Assembly: GCA_003695725.1 (NCBI GenBank)
Contig: RFHX01000155.1
Location: 1-7,668, forward strand
From: J061 sp003695725 [NCBI: Candidatus Schekmanbacteria bacterium]
GTDB lineage: Bacteria; Schekmanbacteria; GWA2-38-11
Reading direction: 5' to 3'
Length of the DNA: 7,668 bases
The position numbers were made by a program, and so were the translations under genes. The stretch's first letter is position 1, and the number at the start of each line of letters is the position of its first letter. The notes beneath the pieces were generated by a model that was not told where the DNA came from, searched no databases, and saw only the letters and a list, made by a program, of their open reading frames with translations. Shown here piece after piece: positions 1 through 7,651 of the stretch.

Positions 1-701
1 ACAAATTCCATATCTTCAAGTGGAAGTCCTGCATTGTAAACAATGCTCATCCCATCGCCTGTTGAAGAATAAGCGTTTGATGTTGTCTTAAATATCTTTC
101 CATATCCACCTGTAGCAAACATCACTGCCTTGGCATGAAGAACTATTATTTCACCGCTTATCATATCCATCCCTACAATACCTCGGCAGATATTGTCTCG
201 CACGATCAAATCAAGCATCAAAAATTCTGAATAAACCTTTACCTGATGTTTGATACACTGCTCATAGAGAGTATGAAGCATTACATGTCCTGTCCTGTCA
301 GCGGCATAACATGCTCTTTTAACAGCCGCTTCACCGAAATTTTTCGTATGCCCGCCAAAAGGTCTTTGTGCAATTTTGCCATCCTTGGTTCTGCTGAAAG
401 GCACTCCCATATGCTCCAATTCATAGACCGTGCGCGGTGCATCATTGCACATTATTTCAATCGCTTCCTGATCTCCCAAATAGTCACTTCCTTTGGTAGT
501 ATCAAAGGCATGCCAAAGTGGAGAGTCTTCTTCTTCATTTCCTAATGCTGCTCCCACACCTCCTTGAGCAGCAGACGAATGTGAGCGTGTTGGGAATACT
601 TTTGTTACAATCGCAACATCAGTGTTCTCAGCAAGCTCAACAGCTGCTCTTGAACCAGCAAGACCAGCTCCAACTATTATTACATCATGTTCAAAAGTCA
701 T
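1..701 (-). CDS. sdhA: Succinate dehydrogenase/fumarate reductase flavoprotein subunit, N-terminal 233 codons
   Basis: This is the FAD-carrying catalytic subunit that interconverts succinate and fumarate on the cytoplasmic face of the membrane (complex II). The reading frame is open from the ATG at 701 to the window edge, giving about 233 of the roughly 570-640 residues usual in the family. The protein begins with a dinucleotide-binding loop (VGAGLAG, about residues 10-16). Next comes RSHSSAAQGG, in which His41 is the expected site of covalent FAD attachment. Further on are a QRPFGGH segment, ADRTGHVMLHTLYEQ, and near the edge GGYGKIF and STGDGMS, all typical of SdhA. The start is supported by GAGGAGGA at 707-714, six to seven bases upstream. 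It follows sdhD by 29 bases, so the order is C-D-A and sdhB is expected outside the window. Function is secure; the direction in vivo (succinate oxidation or fumarate reduction) cannot be told from this fragment. Confidence 0.96.
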   Translation of the reverse strand, partial: MTFEHDVIIVGAGLAGSRAAVELAENTDVAIVTKVFPTRSHSSAAQGGVGAALGNEEEDSPLWHAFDTTKGSDYLGDQEAIEIMCNDAPRTVYELEHMGVPFSRTKDGKIAQRPFGGHTKNFGEAAVKRACYAADRTGHVMLHTLYEQCIKHQVKVYSEFLMLDLIVRDNICRGIVGMDMISGEIIVLHAKAVMFATGGYGKIFKTTSNAYSSTGDGMSIVYNAGLPLEDMEF

Positions 702-730
702 CGTTATCCTCCTCAATAAATCCCTATAAA

Positions 731-1111
731 TTAAGGGATATTTACCCAATCAGGTGAAATTGGCAATACAGCAACAAATCCAAGGACTACTAAAATTAAT
801 CCTACAAATGACAACAAACTGAATATTGTCGTTTTCCATGCAGGAGATTTAATGTAGTCTTGGACTACCATCCAGATGCCATTCAATCCATGGTATAGTC
901 CCAAAACGAGGAAGGATAAATCAATAACTTTGAACTTTGGATCTGCTAATCTCTTTACAACAGCATCAAAAAGGATATTTTCTTCTCCTCCGCTGTAATG
1001 CATTATCCAAAAATGAATCAATAACAAAAAGAGGAGAACCAAACCAGTTATTCTTTGAAAAAACCAGTTTATAGCTCCTGAATCGCTTGAAACTCTATTT
1101 TCTAATGCCAT
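731..1111 (-). CDS. sdhD: Succinate dehydrogenase membrane anchor subunit D (heme b)
   Basis: This 126-residue hydrophobic protein is the second membrane anchor of complex II and helps bind heme b and quinone. Three membrane helices can be read at about residues 18-39, 62-85 and 95-117. The entry to helix 1 carries FQRITG, the R-x-T-G pattern of the SdhC/SdhD superfamily. Candidate heme ligands are His33 (or His38) in helix 1 and His74 in helix 2, the latter within YHGLNG. The ATG at 1111 is preceded by AAGGA about nine bases upstream. It lies 24 bases after sdhC and 29 bases before sdhA, so co-transcription is very likely. SdhC and SdhD are paralogous and their names can be swapped; D is used because this is the second anchor gene before sdhA. 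It carries a short hydrophilic N-terminus and no cleavable signal peptide is evident. Confidence 0.88.
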   Translation of the reverse strand: MALENRVSSDSGAINWFFQRITGLVLLFLLLIHFWIMHYSGGEENILFDAVVKRLADPKFKVIDLSFLVLGLYHGLNGIWMVVQDYIKSPAWKTTIFSLLSFVGLILVVLGFVAVLPISPDWVNIP

Positions 1112-1135
1112 AATTCACCATCCTTCCTTATCTAT

Positions 1136-1489
1136 CTATCCTGCCAAAAGGGGCGAAACAAAAGGATAAGCCCCAGCAAGAAAAATTATTATCCCTATAA
1201 CTACCAATACCCAAAAAACCGATTTGTGGTAGCTTGCGCCTCCAAAAAAATCTATTAGAAAAACCCTGACACCATTTAAACTGTGGTAAATGATAATGGC
1301 AAAAAGAGCCAATTCACCAAGTTTAAAGATAGGAGCTCCAAAGAGCTTCATCAGGTTGTCGAAGCTCTCTCTCCCCTGCTGCAGATGGCTGACAGTATAA
1401 ATATGTTCAAGGATAAAGAGAGTTATTCCTAATCCTGTTACTCTGTGCAGGACCCACGCCCACATTCCAGTTCGCCATTTATACCTCAT
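1136..1489 (-). CDS. sdhC: Succinate dehydrogenase cytochrome b subunit C
   Basis: This 117-residue integral membrane protein anchors the SdhAB domain and contributes heme b and quinone contacts. It has three predicted helices at about residues 12-34, 57-80 and 90-113. The family signature is clear: HRVTG at residues 15-19 at the start of helix 1, and YHSLNGVR at 68-75 in helix 2, where His69 is the expected heme ligand. His29 in helix 1 is a second candidate ligand. The ATG at 1489 has a strong GGAGG site at 1496-1500 with six bases of spacing. The gene follows the fumarase beta stop by 30 bases and precedes sdhD by 24 bases. The length is normal for the small three-helix anchors. Together with SdhD, four helix-embedded histidines are present, which fits a diheme anchor (see findings). 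Confidence 0.9.
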   Translation of the reverse strand: MRYKWRTGMWAWVLHRVTGLGITLFILEHIYTVSHLQQGRESFDNLMKLFGAPIFKLGELALFAIIIYHSLNGVRVFLIDFFGGASYHKSVFWVLVVIGIIIFLAGAYPFVSPLLAG

Positions 1490-1495
1490 AATAAA

Positions 1496-1502
1496 CCTCC
1501 AA
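1496..1502 (-). promoter_or_regulatory. Ribosome binding site of sdhC
   Basis: The minus strand reads TTGGAGG followed by six bases and the ATG of sdhC. It is the strongest internal ribosome binding site of the fum-sdh part. It is listed because seven contiguous bases (TGGAGGT, running one base into the spacer) are complementary to an exposed C-rich segment of the RNA-like element upstream of the fumarase genes. Confidence 0.75.
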
Positions 1503-1519
1503 AAAAGTTAAAAAAAGCG

Positions 1520-2080
1520 TCAATCAATTATCTGGTATCTTTTCCTTCCTTCCTTGTATAAATCATTGCCATAAATATCATTCACTACAACAGCAGGAAA
1601 ATTTTCGACTTCTATTCTTCTAATTGCTTCAGGCCCCAAGTCCTCATAGGCAATGATTTCAGCTTTTTTGATTTGGCTTGCAATCAGAGCCGCCGCTCCT
1701 CCAATAGCCGCAAAATATACAGATTTATATTTTTTCATAGCTTCAATAACATTATCAGCCCTCGAGCCCTTGCCTATCATTCCTTTCAACCCCAATTCTA
1801 TCAAACGTGGAGCATAGGCATCCATCCTGCCACTTGTGGTCGGTCCGGCTGAACCTATAACTCTTCCGGGTTTTGCCGGAGTAGGCCCTACATAATATAT
1901 AACCTGACCCTTGACATCTATGGGAAGCTCTTCCCCTTTATCCAAGAGTTCAACCAATCTTTTGTGTGCCGCATCTCTTCCAGTCAACAGGACACCGCTT
2001 ATTAAAACTTGATCCCCTATTTTTAACTTTTCAACATCTTCATCTTTTAACGGCGTTTGAAGTTTAATCGGTCCTTCCAT
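1520..2080 (-). CDS. Class I fumarate hydratase, beta (C-terminal domain) subunit
   Basis: This is the smaller subunit of the two-part, oxygen-sensitive [4Fe-4S] fumarase that interconverts fumarate and L-malate in the cytoplasm. With the chosen start it has 186 residues, the usual size. Visible family motifs are GRDAAHKRL (34-42), GPTPAKPG (65-72), GSAGPTTSGRMD (76-87) and IGKG (102-105). The frame stays open upstream to an ATG at 2134, but that start would overlap the alpha gene by 32 bases, lacks a ribosome binding site, and adds 18 residues not expected in the family. The ATG at 2080 has GAGGG at 2089-2093 with eight bases of spacing and gives the typical N-terminus leading into KLQTPL; ATGs at 2095 and 2086 are less well placed. 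The alpha stop is 22 bases upstream. The related tartrate dehydratase beta subunit is an alternative that the TCA neighbours make unlikely. Confidence 0.93.
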   Translation of the reverse strand: MEGPIKLQTPLKDEDVEKLKIGDQVLISGVLLTGRDAAHKRLVELLDKGEELPIDVKGQVIYYVGPTPAKPGRVIGSAGPTTSGRMDAYAPRLIELGLKGMIGKGSRADNVIEAMKKYKSVYFAAIGGAAALIASQIKKAEIIAYEDLGPEAIRRIEVENFPAVVVNDIYGNDLYKEGRKRYQIID

Positions 2081-2102
2081 TTTCATTTCCCTCATCAAAT
2101 TA

Positions 2103-2942
2103 TTAAAGAACAACTTCCTTGTGTCTATGGGCATGACAATTGATATTGACTGCTACAGGAAGACTTGCTATATGACATGGATGCTTTTCAATATGTACAG
2201 CAAGAGCTGTAATTCTTCCTCCATAACCTTGAGGTCCAATACCTAATTTATTTACCTTTTCAAGCATTTCCTCTTCAAGTTTGGCAATTTCAGGATCAGG
2301 ATTATGTTTGCCAAGTTCACGGGTTAGAGACTTTTTTGCAAGAAGAGCAGCTACCTCAAAAGTCCCTCCAATTCCTACTCCAACAACTATAGGAGGACAA
2401 GGATTGGGTCCTGCTTCACTTACTCTTTCAAGAATAAACTGCTTTATGCCCTCAACTCCATCAGAGGGTTTGAGCATTTTAAGGCCGCTCATATTTTCGC
2501 TTCCCCCACCCTTTGGAGCCATAATGATTTTCAATGAATCTCCCGGGACAATAGAGGTATGAATTACAGCCGGAGTATTGTCGCCTGTATTAACTCGATT
2601 CAAAGGATCGGCAACAATTGATTTCCTTAAATATCCTTCCTTGTAGCCCTGCCTTACGCCCTCATTAACAGCATCAACAAAATTTCCTTCAATATGTACA
2701 TCCTGTCCAATCTCAGCAAAGATTACAGCAAATCCTGTATCTTGACACATAGGGACTGAGTCTCTTCTGGCAATTTCAGAATTCTCCTTTATGTGCTGTA
2801 GGACAACTTTACAAACAGGCGATTCCTCTTTTTCAATTGCTTCATCAAGAGCTTTTACAACATCTTCACCAAGGTCGTAGTTTGCATCCATACACATTTT
2901 TTTTACAGCATCAGTTATTTGTGAAGCTTTTATCGTTTTCAT
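2103..2942 (-). CDS. Class I fumarate hydratase, alpha (N-terminal domain) subunit
   Basis: This 279-residue protein is the iron-sulfur subunit of the heteromeric class I fumarase (fumarate + water to L-malate). Three cysteines placed as expected for the [4Fe-4S] cluster are seen: Cys66 in PMCQDTG, Cys182 in NPCPP and Cys269 in NCHAHRH. KGGGSEN (144-150) and GVGIGGTF (188-195) are further family motifs. The frame extends three codons upstream to a TTG at 2951, but that TTG abuts the AGGG ribosome binding site (2952-2955) and cannot use it, whereas the ATG at 2942 has nine bases of spacing and is chosen. The beta subunit follows after 22 bases. The spacer to mdh is about 200 bases and contains a terminator-like repeat and a structured element, so this gene may begin its own transcription unit. 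Being an Fe-S hydro-lyase of the oxygen-sensitive class, it fits an anaerobic or low-oxygen host. Confidence 0.95.
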   Translation of the reverse strand: MKTIKASQITDAVKKMCMDANYDLGEDVVKALDEAIEKEESPVCKVVLQHIKENSEIARRDSVPMCQDTGFAVIFAEIGQDVHIEGNFVDAVNEGVRQGYKEGYLRKSIVADPLNRVNTGDNTPAVIHTSIVPGDSLKIIMAPKGGGSENMSGLKMLKPSDGVEGIKQFILERVSEAGPNPCPPIVVGVGIGGTFEVAALLAKKSLTRELGKHNPDPEIAKLEEEMLEKVNKLGIGPQGYGGRITALAVHIEKHPCHIASLPVAVNINCHAHRHKEVVL

Positions 2943-2991
2943 TTTTATCAACCCTGTTTTTGTTTAAAAAGTGACAAATTTTAAAAAAATC

Positions 2992-3009
2992 AAAAAAAAG
3001 CCCCGCTCA
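2992..3009 (-). terminator. GC-rich stem arm plus T-run before the fumarase genes
   Basis: The 3' arm TGAGCGGG (3009-3002), two further bases and eight Ts (2999-2992) form the distal half of an intrinsic terminator whose 5' arm lies at 3067-3074. The large loop is unusual for a simple terminator and suggests attenuation or an RNA 3' end rather than the end of mdh, which has its own repeat at its stop codon. Read-through would be needed for fum-sdh expression from upstream promoters, since no clear promoter is seen between the T-run and the fumarase start. Confidence 0.45.
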
Positions 3010-3098
3010 TTTCTTCAAAAACCTTAAATAGGATTTTTTAACTAGTTTCTAAATTCTTTGTGGAGGTAAGCGGGAAAAAAATCATTTCATTCTTTCTC
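2992..3098 (-). ncRNA. Candidate structured leader or small RNA upstream of the fumarase genes
   Basis: The minus strand from about 3098 to 2992 can form a closed domain. CCCGCTTA (3074-3067) pairs with TGAGCGGG (3009-3002) over eight pairs, one of them G-U. The 57-base interior holds a second hairpin (AAAAA-x-CCT / AGG-TTTTT around 3014-3036), and the outer stem is followed by GC and eight Ts (2999-2992). The G+C of the closing stem stands out in a very AT-rich spacer. The same position and orientation fit either a transcription attenuator/riboswitch-like leader of fum-sdh or an independent RNA of about 105 nt ending at an intrinsic terminator. It does not match any riboswitch consensus I can recall. 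The pairing is seen in the sequence; that it is transcribed and functional is inference. Confidence 0.42.
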
Positions 3099-3104
3099 TC
3101 ACAA

Positions 3105-3110
3105 AGTATA
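3105..3110 (-). promoter_or_regulatory. Possible -10 element for the fumarase leader
   Basis: The minus strand reads TATACT, five of six matches to the sigma-70 -10 consensus, in the mdh-fumarase spacer. It would start transcription near 3098, just ahead of the structured element. The region about 17 bases upstream has only a poor -35 match, so the call is weak and rests on the -10 alone and on its placement between a terminator-like repeat and the structured RNA. Confidence 0.3.
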
Positions 3111-3114
3111 TATC

Positions 3115-4085
<971 letters not shown>

Positions 4086-4095
4086 TCAGGCTCCT

Positions 4096-5349
4096 TTAAA
4101 CAGTGTCCATATTTTTAATTATTTCACTCCCATACTCAGAACACTTGATCTTCTTTGCCCCTTCCATCAATCTTTCAAGGTCATAAGTTACAGTCTTGTT
4201 TTGAATTGTCTTCGCAATCGCCTTTACAATAAGGTCTCCTGCTTCATCCCAACCCATATGTTCAAACATCATAACGCCTGAAAGAATTACCGAACTGGGA
4301 TTGATTACATCTTTTCCTGCATATTTTGGAGCAGTTCCGTGTGTTGCTTCGAAAAGAGCAACTTCATCACCAATATTTGCACCCGGTGCTAAACCTAAAC
4401 CTCCAACCTGAGCCGCGCAGGCATCTGAAAGATAATCGCCGTTGAGATTTGGTGTGCAGATGATGTCATATTCATCTGGTCTGGTGAGAACCTGCTGAAA
4501 CATTGAATCAGCTATTCTATCTTTAATGAGGATTTTCCCATCAGGGAGCTTGCCGTCATATTTTTCCCAAAGCTCATCTTCTGTGATTGTAATGTCGCTA
4601 AACTCTTCTTTTGCAACCTCATAACCCCAATCTCTAAAAGCTCCTTCGGTGAACTTCATTATATTGCCTTTATGAACAAGAGTTACACTCTTCTTTCCTC
4701 TTTTTATCGCATAATTGATCCCCATCTTAACGAGGCGCTTCGTGCCTGTTATGCTTATTGGTTTAATACCAACACCGGAATCAGGCCTTACCTTTACTCC
4801 CATTTCATTTGACAAAAAATCAATGACTTTTTTGACTTCATCAGTGCCTTGCTGCCATTCAATTCCGGCATATACATCCTCTGTATTTTCACGAAATATG
4901 ACAACATCGAGTTTCTGAGGCGCCTTGACAGGGCTTGGCACACCTTCAAAATATCTAACAGGCCTTACACAAGCATAAAGGTCGAGAATTTTTCTCAAAC
5001 TGACATTTAAACTTCGTATTCCTCCTCCAACAGGTGTTGTCAAAGGACCTTTTATTGCAACTTTATATTCCTTTATCGCATTTATAGTATCATCAGGAAG
5101 CCATTCTCCAACAGAGTTATAAGCTTTTTCGCCTGCAAGAACTTCAAACCAATGAATTTTCCTTTTACCACCATAAGCTTTCTCCACAGCGGCATCAAAA
5201 ACTCTTACAGCGGCAGCCCAAATATCGCCACCAATTCCATCACCTTCAATAAATGGTATTATAGGGTCATCAGGCACACTAAGCTGACCATCTTTGATTT
5301 CAATTTTTGTCCCACTTTCCGGTTTCTTTAAATTTTTGAACTCGACCAA
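4096..5349 (-). CDS. icd: NADP-dependent isocitrate dehydrogenase, E. coli type
   Basis: This 417-residue homodimer-type enzyme converts isocitrate to 2-oxoglutarate and CO2, reducing NADP. It aligns almost throughout with E. coli Icd by eye. Substrate residues are seen in [12 protein letters not shown] (Ser113, Arg112, Arg119), Arg129, Arg153, Tyr160 and Lys227 (VHKGNIMKF). Metal ligands are in LNGDYLSDA (Asp305, Asp309). NADP preference is indicated by Lys342-Tyr343 in [11 protein letters not shown] and by Tyr389 and Arg393 in VTYDLERL, the positions that bind the 2'-phosphate in the E. coli enzyme. The start is a TTG at 5349, chosen because AAGGAGGA at 5355-5362 sits about six bases upstream and the resulting N-terminus matches the family; no ATG or GTG is suitably placed. 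It is first in the TCA block behind a promoter near 5479-5507. The use of TTG despite a strong ribosome binding site is mildly unusual for a central enzyme. Confidence 0.97.
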
Positions 5350-5700: not shown

Positions 5701-6591
5701 TTACTTGAACCAATCCTTCCAGTTGTCTGAAAGAATACCTGATTTTTTATACCTGAGCATATAATCTTTACAACTGCATTTGCGCTCTTTTGCATAGTTT
5801 TCTTTTATAAATCGAAAAATCAATGATGGAATTTTTTCTAATGTTTCTTGCACCTTAACTGCCTCATCCTTATTTTGCATTCCTTCAAAGAGAATACCTG
5901 ACTGAAATGATTTCTTTCTGCCAATACCTTCAGCAACATTGGTAAGATAACAAATTGGCTGATAACAGATTTCAAGTTCCCGTGCAAGGAAACACTCAGG
6001 TGCTAAAGTCATCCCTACCAAATCTGCTCCCAAGATTTTATACATTTTGATTTCAGCAGCTGTTTCCAATCTTGGTCCCTCTGTACAAACATAAACGCCC
6101 CCCTTTTTAACATTTATTTTCATCTTCTTTGCACAATTATAAACCATATCAGCAAGGTCCGGACAAAATACGGGATTTTGCCTAACAAATCCGATACCCT
6201 TGTTTTCAAAGAAGGTGTTTTTTCTCGTCTTCGTTTCATCAATTATGTCATCAGGAAGGACAATATCAGCCACTTTGAATTTTGAAATGTTTATTATTCC
6301 CGGCCCTGACCAAGATACAATTCTTTCAACACCAATCTCTTTTAATGCCCATATATTCGCCCGATAATTTACAAAGGGAGCTGAAACATCGTACCCTTTT
6401 TCCCCATGCCTTGAAATAAAGGCAAAATGAATTCCGTCCTTTTCGTAAATATATAAGGGAGCACTATTGCCAAAAGGAGTTTTTATGATTTTTCTCGATA
6501 TTTGCTTCCCCCAGCTTTTATCAATCGTCAAATAGGCTTTGCTTCCGCCTATTATTCCAACCTTTGAAAAACATTTCTTTTTAACTGCCAC
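5701..6591 (-). CDS. MTAP/PNP-family nucleoside phosphorylase, candidate futalosine-cleaving enzyme
   Basis: This 296-residue protein belongs to the trimeric methylthioadenosine/purine nucleoside phosphorylase family, which cleaves the base from a nucleoside using phosphate. Landmarks are GIIGGS (12-17, phosphate loop), RHG (61-63), VNYRANIWALKE (74-85), TEGPRLET (170-177), GMT (193-195) and a C-terminal CSC (272-274). Where human MTAP has Asp220 and Asp222 for adenine, this protein has Asn218 and Ala220 (LTNVAEG). That pattern is known from 6-oxopurine-specific relatives such as methylthioinosine phosphorylase and suggests hypoxanthine rather than adenine. The frame extends up to a TTG at 6654, but that would give a 74-base overlap and an odd N-terminus. 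The GTG at 6591 has GGAG seven bases upstream and gives the family N-terminus, overlapping mqnC by 11 bases. Such coupling suggests it removes hypoxanthine from futalosine ahead of MqnC. Alternatives are methylthioinosine or 5'-deoxyinosine salvage. The family is certain; the substrate is inferred. Confidence 0.82.
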   Translation of the reverse strand: MAVKKKCFSKVGIIGGSKAYLTIDKSWGKQISRKIIKTPFGNSAPLYIYEKDGIHFAFISRHGEKGYDVSAPFVNYRANIWALKEIGVERIVSWSGPGIINISKFKVADIVLPDDIIDETKTRKNTFFENKGIGFVRQNPVFCPDLADMVYNCAKKMKINVKKGGVYVCTEGPRLETAAEIKMYKILGADLVGMTLAPECFLARELEICYQPICYLTNVAEGIGRKKSFQSGILFEGMQNKDEAVKVQETLEKIPSLIFRFIKENYAKERKCSCKDYMLRYKKSGILSDNWKDWFK

Positions 6592-7651
6592 CTTTAATCT
6601 CCAAGATTTTATAATTATTGTCTCTCCTAACTGGGACAAATCCTGCTCTTTCAATCAAATTAACGATTTCATCTTCATCCATCCTAAATGTTGCCCCTGC
6701 CATTCTCACAACATTTTCCTCCATCATTGTTCCCCCAAGGTCATTTGCTCCAAAAAAAAGGGAAAGCTGAGCTACCTTGGCGCCCTGCGTAACCCATGAA
6801 GACTGAATGTTTTTTATATTGTCCAAATATATGCGAGAAAGAGCCAAGGTTTTTAAATATTCAAATGATGATGCTTTGAATTCGCCAAGTTTTGTATTTT
6901 TCCATTGGAATGTCCATGGTATGAAAGCTGTAAAACCTCCGGTTTCATCCTGAAGTTCTCTTATTCTCTCAAGATGAAAAACCCTGTCTTTAATACTTTC
7001 AATGTGGCCAAACATCATTGTAGCTGTTGTAGGCATTTTTAACTTATGTGCCTCCCGCATAACTTCAATCCATTGTTTCCCACTGCACTTATGGGGGCTT
7101 ATTTTTCTTCGCGTCTCCTCTACCAATATCTCTGCACCTCCACCGGGTATAGAATCGAGCCCTGCATCTTTCAAGTGTCGTAATACCTTGGAGGTGGATA
7201 TTTTTTCTTTTTCTGCAATAAAGACAATTTCAGGTGGAGAAAATGAGTGGATGTGGATTTTAAATCTCTCCTTAATTCCTTTTAAAAGTTTTTCATAATA
7301 ATCCAGACCAAGGTTAGGATTTAGTCCTCCCTGCATCAATATTCTTGAAGCACCTTTTTTTATCGCCTCATCAATCTTATTATATATCTCATCATTTGAA
7401 AGAAGAAATCCTCCTTCCTCATCCGGTTTTTTATAAAAAGCGCAAAATGCACAGCCTGAAACACAGATATTCGTGAAATTAATATTCCTATCAACTATAT
7501 AGGAAACTTGGGAAGAATCAGTTTTCTTAAGTCGAATATTATGGGCAAGACGTCCAAGAAGATGCAAATCCGATTTCTCGTAAAGAAGAATTGCTTCTTC
7601 TTTGTCTATCCTCTTCTCATTTTCAATTTTTTCTATTCTTTCATTTATCAT
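6581..7651 (-). CDS. mqnC: Cyclic dehypoxanthinyl futalosine synthase (radical SAM)
   Basis: This 356-residue radical SAM enzyme converts dehypoxanthine futalosine to its cyclic form in the futalosine route to menaquinone. The cluster motif is CVSGCAFC, with Cys63, Cys67 and Cys70 (CxxxCxxC), preceded by DRNINFTNI. MqnC-like features are YIVDRNIN (51-58), QGGLNPNL (107-114), HSFSPPEI (135-142), LDSIPGGGAEIL (165-176), TATMMFGHIES (209-219) and FIPWTFQ (243-249). These favour MqnC over its paralogues MqnE and CofH. The ATG at 7651 yields a normal length but has no clear ribosome binding site in the 17 bases available, so it may be translated by coupling to an upstream gene outside the window. 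The gene overlaps the MTAP-like gene by 11 bases. Its presence implies that the host makes menaquinone, the usual low-potential quinone partner of the succinate dehydrogenase encoded in this window. Confidence 0.95.
   Translation of the reverse strand: MINERIEKIENEKRIDKEEAILLYEKSDLHLLGRLAHNIRLKKTDSSQVSYIVDRNINFTNICVSGCAFCAFYKKPDEEGGFLLSNDEIYNKIDEAIKKGASRILMQGGLNPNLGLDYYEKLLKGIKERFKIHIHSFSPPEIVFIAEKEKISTSKVLRHLKDAGLDSIPGGGAEILVEETRRKISPHKCSGKQWIEVMREAHKLKMPTTATMMFGHIESIKDRVFHLERIRELQDETGGFTAFIPWTFQWKNTKLGEFKASSFEYLKTLALSRIYLDNIKNIQSSWVTQGAKVAQLSLFFGANDLGGTMMEENVVRMAGATFRMDEDEIVNLIERAGFVPVRRDNNYKILEIKGGS

Follow-up and report, generated by a model that had tools for sequence, protein, structure and literature searches.

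The described enzymes closest to the protein considered here are the MTAPs (PDB 2a8y and 1v4n; human enzyme, 1cb0/3oze), which provide its top matches in the PDB by both structure and sequence, the MTIPs, exemplified by PA3004 (PDB 3ozb) and by the archaeal-type MtiP, and the hydrolase MqnB (TIGR03664) and MTAN, PF01048 proteins with which it presumably shares the role of removing the purine from (amino)futalosine. As described in an excerpt of a 2016 paper (PMC4746308), another PF01048 gene, mqnZ, occurs with mqnC and mqnE in mqnD-less genomes of Selenomonas, Syntrophomonas and others and was proposed to replace MqnD, while a passage of a review (PMC6302742) mentions the promiscuous MtiP as an enzyme that could act in the futalosine pathway; neither "futalosine phosphorylase" nor "aminofutalosine phosphorylase" was found in the open-access literature searched. 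The gene dealt with here occupies positions 5701–6591 (minus strand) of a stretch of 7,668 nucleotides (the window), i.e., contig C155 of a draft genome (2.77 Mb, 97.84% complete) of a Candidatus Schekmanbacteria bacterium. It starts with GTG (6589–6591) and encodes 296 amino acids; its product and the clade to which this belongs are given here the name FutP. FutP is probably an MTAP-fold phosphorylase re-tuned to futalosine, which replaces MqnB in a variant of the menaquinone pathway.

In this variant, MqnA and MqnE would make aminofutalosine, an amidohydrolase would deaminate it to futalosine, FutP would use phosphate to split futalosine into hypoxanthine and dehypoxanthine-futalosine 1-phosphate, and MqnC would close the ring, with the late steps bypassing MqnD. 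That futalosine is the substrate, that its cleavage is phosphorolytic rather than hydrolytic, and the nature of all steps following the cleavage are what we infer from the comparison of sequences and genomes presented below.

The membership of FutP in the phosphorylase superfamily is indicated by its PF01048 score (120.4 bits, cut-off 25.1) and by an AlphaFold2 model displaying the MTAP fold (pLDDT 89, pTM 0.90), whose top structural match is human MTAP (3oze_F, E 2.5e-22), MTIP 3ozb ranking 38th. Its 11 NCBIfam matches are all of the MTAP or PNP type and the best named families are of the MTAP/MTIP kind; the scores remain, however, below the equivalog cut-offs of both MTAP (TIGR01694, 215.4 vs 274.85 bits) and MTIP (NF006599, 169.5 vs 223 bits), and the protein has no match to either TIGR03664 (MqnB) or TIGR01704 (MTAN) at E 0.001. 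FutP of the window is 34% identical (full alignment) to the MTAP of its own genome, 31–33% identical to archaeal MTAPs and 46–65% identical to the 27 other aligned members of its clade, the next homologues beyond the clade being at most 43% identical over long stretches in the first 41 genomes. In a maximum-likelihood tree of 66 rows, from which L016 (wrong frame, branch length 10) and the long PNP rows L373 and L369 were excluded, the 28 FutP rows occupy a single branch (support 100/97), separate from MTAPs, MTIP-like proteins and PNPs. FutP is a distinct clade, and this clade is widespread: the best 80 of 265 relatives from a scan of named genomes (hereafter, the named loci) each contain a frame scoring at least 296 bits against FutP of the window, as compared with ~135 for the MTAP of the window genome, and are distributed, according to the record titles, among Nitrospinota (48), Nitrospirota (12), Aquificota (8), Armatimonadota (3), Planctomycetota (2) and five more phyla with one locus each, i.e., ten named phyla in all, two loci being unassigned.

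The active-site residues of human MTAP include, in the list given in an excerpt of PMC5738077, T18, R60, H61, T93, T197, S178, D220 and D222. These positions were transferred to FutP by a mapping of our own, and 28 FutP rows were compared with 40 other rows, including 20 MTAP, 8 MTIP-like and 9 PNP rows. T18, R60, H61, T93 and T197, which we take to form the phosphate part of the site, correspond to S17, R61, H62, S95 or T95, and T195, and are kept in 28/28 FutP rows; S178, D220 and D222, presumably belonging to the base part, correspond to E176, N218 and A220, like in the hypoxanthine-type relatives. The initial annotation had noticed Asn218/Ala220 in place of the Asp/Asp pair of MTAP and predicted a 6-oxopurine; the two residues are indeed present in the window protein and invariant in 28/28 members of the clade, Asp being found at each position in 17/20 MTAP rows, and the prediction is strengthened by Glu176, absent from that annotation and common to 9/9 PNP rows. 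Both Glu176 and the Asn-x-Ala-x-Gly signature are also shared with MTIP and the archaeal-type MtiP and fit hypoxanthine. Altogether, we read the base site of FutP as being of the 6-oxopurine (hypoxanthine) type, with the phosphate site kept.

Additional residues set FutP apart from MTAP and MTIP. Invariant in 28/28 FutP rows are W94, G96-P97, F135, R137, E221 and L234-F235-E236-G237; R137 occurs in 0/40 of the non-FutP rows, R137, W94, P97 and E221 in 0/8 of the MTIP-like rows, and Phe135 stands where His is invariant in the MTAP (20/20) and MTIP-like (8/8) rows. The L234-F235-E236-G237 sequence is contained in an insertion located near V233, V236 and L237 of the human enzyme, which presumably line the 5′ side of the pocket; the segment 232–237 is specific to the clade. 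These features suggest that the 5′ pocket may have been reshaped to receive a group both aromatic and negatively charged, such as would fit the 3-carboxyphenyl end of futalosine, and the combination of a kept phosphate site with rebuilt base and 5′ pockets makes phosphorolysis of futalosine the most likely reaction. The same site bears on an alternative in which FutP is functionally an MqnB, namely a hydrolase built on a phosphorylase fold that would supply free dehypoxanthine futalosine to an ordinary MqnC. This possibility, attractive insofar as no new chemistry would be needed up to MqnC, is favored by the altered loop next to the phosphate site (W94, G96-P97), but the five matches to the phosphate-site residues of MTAP (site list in the excerpt of PMC5738077) are either kept or conservatively replaced (Thr to Ser) in 28/28 rows, and the lack of MqnD described below would be left unexplained; we consider it unlikely.

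What is, then, the metabolic context offered to FutP by its own genome? PF01048 retrieves at E 0.001 two genes only, FutP and a canonical MTAP (contig C56) having the adenine-type TDYDCW motif and scoring 327.1 bits, above the MTAP cut-off. Neither MqnB nor MTAN, whose presence elsewhere would speak against the replacement of MqnB put forward in the initial annotation, was found by this search in the 97.84% complete draft, and TIGR03664 has no match in the genome at E 1e-20. On the other hand, both mqnA and mqnE, about which the same annotation had asked, are present in addition to mqnC and to a UbiD-type menaquinone decarboxylase. MqnE (534 bits, cut-off 434.55) is on contig C26 and adjoins a gene that we read as citrate synthase; the decarboxylase (651.6 bits, cut-off 495.9) adjoins the sole gene of PF02621, the family containing MqnA and MqnD. 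Since the PDB matches of this gene are chorismate dehydratases (two of the nine are titled hypothetical protein), it is assigned to MqnA, and MqnD was not found in the genome, PF02621 yielding this single gene.

The association with MqnC and the absence of MqnB extend to the other FutP genomes. In a set of 386 genomes, for which the p values ignore kinship, FutP is present at 389 bits or more in 18, belonging to ten families, while eight more genomes have MTAP-family matches of 205–230 bits. MqnC is above its cut-off in 130/386 genomes and in 18/18 of those with FutP (hypergeometric p 1.4e-9). MqnB passes its cut-off in 25/386 genomes, 22 among the 130 with MqnC and three in which MqnC is just below cut-off; a TIGR03664 match at E 1e-20, which occurs in 54/386 genomes, is found in 0/18 FutP genomes as against 37/112 of the other MqnC genomes (p 0.0017). 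The pattern envisaged at the outset, i.e., an MTAP subclade accompanying mqnC in genomes from which mqnB is absent, is therefore the one encountered (18/18 and 0/18, respectively), and the replacement of MqnB is well supported by genomics, both in the window genome and by co-occurrence.

A second absence, that of MqnD, accompanies the first. Fifty-five FutP genome entries correspond to 51 distinct genomes (G361/G390, G206/G396, G312/G401 and G174/G412 are pairs with identical coordinates), and two PF02621 genes are found in 0/51 of them, 49 having one and two (G003, 70% complete, and G395) none. By comparison, 24/25 MqnB genomes have at least two PF02621 genes, G328 having one, and of the 90 MqnC genomes without FutP and MqnB 79 were examined, with at least two PF02621 genes in 60, one in 18 and none in one, the second gene being a weak or split match in a few. 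Within the set of 386, two PF02621 hits occur in 0/18 FutP genomes vs 84/104 (Fisher p 2e-11, again ignoring kinship). In the PF02621 trees, of which the later, widened to 24 FutP genomes, excludes the long row G205b, the 24/24 rows from FutP genomes group with MqnA, together with 3/3 rows from genomes with a related type, F2, discussed below; nine rows from MqnB genomes form another clade. One protein of this clade matches T. thermophilus 2czl, whose description is that of a menaquinone biosynthetic enzyme and which is taken here to be MqnD. A table in an excerpt of PMC3914697 (Table 1) agrees with the existence of MqnD-less genomes, with counts of MqnA, MqnC and MqnD amounting to 9, 9 and 7 in Aquificae and to 24, 25 and 16 in Firmicutes. 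It cannot be claimed that the presence of MqnD tracks that of a hydrolase in all MqnC genomes, because MTAN is above its cut-off in 8/79 of those lacking MqnB and FutP, though 60/79 have at least two PF02621 genes. That MqnB and MqnD are missing together nevertheless suggests that a distinct version of the futalosine pathway is in use in several bacterial phyla.

The mutual exclusion of FutP and MqnD, with two PF02621 genes in 0/51 FutP genomes, could also be understood if FutP replaced MqnD itself and worked downstream of MqnC, with cyclic futalosine or its dehypoxanthine form as substrate, while futalosine is cleaved by some enzyme not recognized here. Yet the fold and the kept residues point to splitting of an N-glycosidic bond with phosphate, a chemistry that, to our knowledge, MqnD does not perform, and MqnB, being missing as well, would require a replacement of its own. 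The role so assigned to FutP is that proposed in 2016 for mqnZ (excerpt of PMC4746308), which is likewise found with mqnC and mqnE in mqnD-less genomes; in spite of this precedent, we attach very little likelihood to it. Compared by description, FutP and mqnZ, the latter represented by MHY_27640 in M. hypermegale, are indeed alike in being PF01048 genes that accompany mqnC/mqnE where mqnD is missing, with PF01048 E-values of 1.14e-32 for mqnZ (same excerpt) and 1e-34 for FutP.

Gene order provides further evidence. In the window, mqnC (cyclic dehypoxanthinyl futalosine synthase, a radical SAM enzyme; TIGR03699 500.7 bits, cut-off 428.1) extends from 6581 to 7651 on the minus strand and its end overlaps the start of FutP by 11 bases (6581–6591), so that the overlap reported initially is borne out by the coordinates; a Shine-Dalgarno-like GGAG for FutP is found at 6599–6602, 7 bases ahead of the GTG. 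FutP follows mqnC on the same strand also in G001, from the family of the window genome (4-base overlap), and in G003, from its order (gap of 165), and mqnC is directly upstream of FutP in 9/80 named loci (gaps from −16 to +113), so the layout is not due to chance; the linkage with mqnC has in mqnZ a precedent in other taxa. An amidohydrolase is directly downstream of FutP in 10/80 loci, one locus having both neighbors and 18/80 either of them. In 24/80 loci, the DNA examined around FutP contains one or more genes of the mqn pathway or of deaminase-like type, namely the amidohydrolase in 16, MqnC in 13, MqnE in 12 and MqnA in 5. Two operons, UbiD-UbiX-UbiA-MqnE-MqnA-MqnC-FutP (L082) and UbiD-UbiA-MqnE-MqnA-MqnC-FutP-amidohydrolase (L069), display these associations most fully. 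By co-occurrence and linkage, FutP belongs to the futalosine-pathway gene set. As to the amidohydrolases, nine were scanned, eight from FutP loci and one next to F2; NF006269 (“aminofutalosine deaminase family”) ranks first for five and second for four of them, with all nine scores under the cut-off of 320; the same proteins also match 5′-deoxyadenosine deaminase models, with lower scores.

The surroundings of the FutP-mqnC pair in the window (3–5349) and in locus L234 (G001:C9) are genes resembling those of the tricarboxylic acid cycle, which we read as succinate dehydrogenase, fumarase, malate and isocitrate dehydrogenase, so that the menaquinone genes lie inside a respiratory cluster. A single contig of G001 contains in order MqnE, citrate synthase, MqnC, FutP, one unrelated gene and then the cycle-like genes, presumably isocitrate dehydrogenase, malate dehydrogenase, fumarase and succinate dehydrogenase.

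The fate of the phosphorylated sugar had been a cause of concern in the initial annotation, as a phosphorylase would yield the 1-phosphate instead of the free sugar; the missing mqnD, unseen at that time, bears on this problem. MqnD releases dihydroxyacetone. A possible, albeit doubtful, sequence of events would keep the sugar phosphorylated throughout: dehypoxanthine-futalosine 1-phosphate would be cyclized by MqnC, an aldose-1-phosphate isomerase, perhaps MtnA of methionine salvage, would give a ketose 1-phosphate, and a retro-aldol step driven by aromatization would, by chemical reasoning rather than from data, release 1,4-dihydroxy-6-naphthoate and dihydroxyacetone phosphate. Such a route would mirror the shunt leading from methylthioadenosine through methylthioribose 1-phosphate to dihydroxyacetone phosphate, and with the 1-phosphate kept and dihydroxyacetone phosphate released MqnD would not be needed, whereby the losses of MqnB and MqnD would be explained together. 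MtnA (PF01008) is present in 17/18 FutP genomes, the miss being G003 (70% complete), and in three FutP genomes it is accompanied by another PF01008 gene with a weaker match. As a FutP-specific isomerase, however, MtnA does not discriminate; being common in MqnB genomes as well (20/25), its participation is possible but not indicated, and no aldolase gene was seen beside MtnA in the 12 loci inspected by eye.

Several observations weigh against the identification of FutP as the futalosine phosphorylase of this pathway. To begin with, among the matches listed, 17/18 FutP genomes have a third PF01048 gene. Ten of these genes were scanned and comprise four AMP-nucleosidase/DeoD-like (L235, L250, L252, L253), four MTAN/HpnG-like (L236, L251, L254, L255) and two PNP (L237, L238) genes; L236 scores 76.6 on the TIGR01704 MTAN model (cut-off 73.8), and the MTAN/HpnG-like nucleosidase-type proteins of G008, G027, G295 and G174 could cleave futalosine. 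That the third gene is the real MqnB is rejected as a general answer, if not for each individual genome, as 0/10 reach the MqnB cut-off of 124.7. With another enzyme cleaving futalosine, FutP and the amidohydrolase could salvage the 5′-deoxyadenosine produced by MqnC (via 5′-deoxyinosine) or methylthioinosine, a role consistent with the lower-scoring matches of the amidohydrolases to 5′-deoxyadenosine deaminase models and with the promiscuity of Methanocaldococcus MtiP, which takes both 5′-deoxyinosine and methylthioinosine (passage of PMC6302742). The third PF01048 genes are nonetheless of unrelated kinds and the window genome has none, so that no nucleosidase common to the FutP genomes was found, nor any match to MqnB; moreover FutP is tied to MqnC (18/18), and a methyl or methylthio group would be an odd partner for Phe135 and Arg137, the two invariant residues next to what is presumed to be the 5′ pocket. 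These considerations render the salvage function decidedly improbable.

Kinship and linkage likewise counsel caution, for kinship is uncorrected and only three supported independent pairs exist on the MqnC tree, none of them contrary but too few for a test; accounting for the distribution of the FutP label on this tree takes 10 changes, of which supported branches force 3. Furthermore, 56/80 named loci have no recognized mqn-pathway gene in the DNA examined (less than 6 kb in 13/80), MqnC, MqnA and FutP are far apart in G008, G156 and G295, and the neighborhoods examined show no conserved phosphatase, isomerase or aldolase gene next to FutP.

MqnC itself is a further difficulty, since the substrate of the known enzyme is presumably the free sugar and, among MqnC rows (88 in all, two of them identical), no clean residue switch distinguishes 29 rows from FutP genomes from 40 others; the lack of a clean change at the specificity positions speaks for the hydrolytic alternative. 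The best interpretable position is 65, in the CxxxCxxC loop (CVSGCAFC in the window), which is Ser, Asn, Thr or Cys in 28/29 FutP-genome rows and Val or Ala in 26/40 rows from genomes with MqnB or two PF02621 genes. The last difficulty arises from F2, an MTAP-superfamily protein encoded directly after mqnC and before an amidohydrolase in the MqnD-less genomes G088, G228 and G150. F2 is ~30% identical to FutP, has the N-x-A-E-G motif in common with it and joins it on the tree with a support (94/97.7) that falls short of the tool's star; it has no Arg in the 137 column, and Met and Gly take the place of the Arg and of a Ser/Thr of the phosphate site. This loss is again in line with hydrolysis, and because the F2 genomes also lack MqnD, the loss of the latter need not follow from phosphorolysis. 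Considering that MqnC bears no phosphate-type signature and that F2 perhaps does not bind phosphate, the function of the missing MqnD may instead be carried out by an unlinked, unrecognized enzyme.

Some neighborhoods deserve mention in their own right. Pfam matches identify a SurE-type phosphatase gene after FutP in L082 (10038–10817) and, in L083 (2502–3302), a gene for a calcineurin-like phosphoesterase that separates mqnA from mqnC, each a single case, which would be of interest if the sugar 1-phosphate had to be dephosphorylated. In L007, L075 and L237 (G013, a Desulfurobacteriaceae genome and G300, respectively) FutP starts a few bases after a gene that we take to be QueF-like (preQ0 reductase). 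Finally, in the clusters L298, L299 and L300 (G131, G149 and G090) MqnE-MqnA-MqnC are followed by what is presumably a menaquinone methyltransferase gene; these genomes have one PF02621 gene, neither FutP nor F2 was recognized in the clusters, and UbiD/UbiA/UbiX are found in L299 and L300, so that yet another type of cluster without MqnD is represented here.

As far as open-access searches go, what is new is the assignment of the enzyme, the clade with its breadth, and the simultaneous absence of MqnB and MqnD. MqnB and MTAN, like FutP, are PF01048 proteins, from which the latter would differ in probably using phosphate. If the assignment is correct, a gap in menaquinone synthesis would be filled for many genomes, including those of Nitrospirota, Desulfurobacteriaceae and Nitrospinota, to which abundant marine nitrite oxidizers belong, and a gene scoring nearest to MTAP could be a quinone enzyme. 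The puzzle would also become sharper, in that the route to 1,4-dihydroxy-6-naphthoate without MqnD in FutP genomes becomes directly testable. Because the enzymes of the futalosine pathway are studied as antibacterial targets, it matters to know which organisms use which enzyme.
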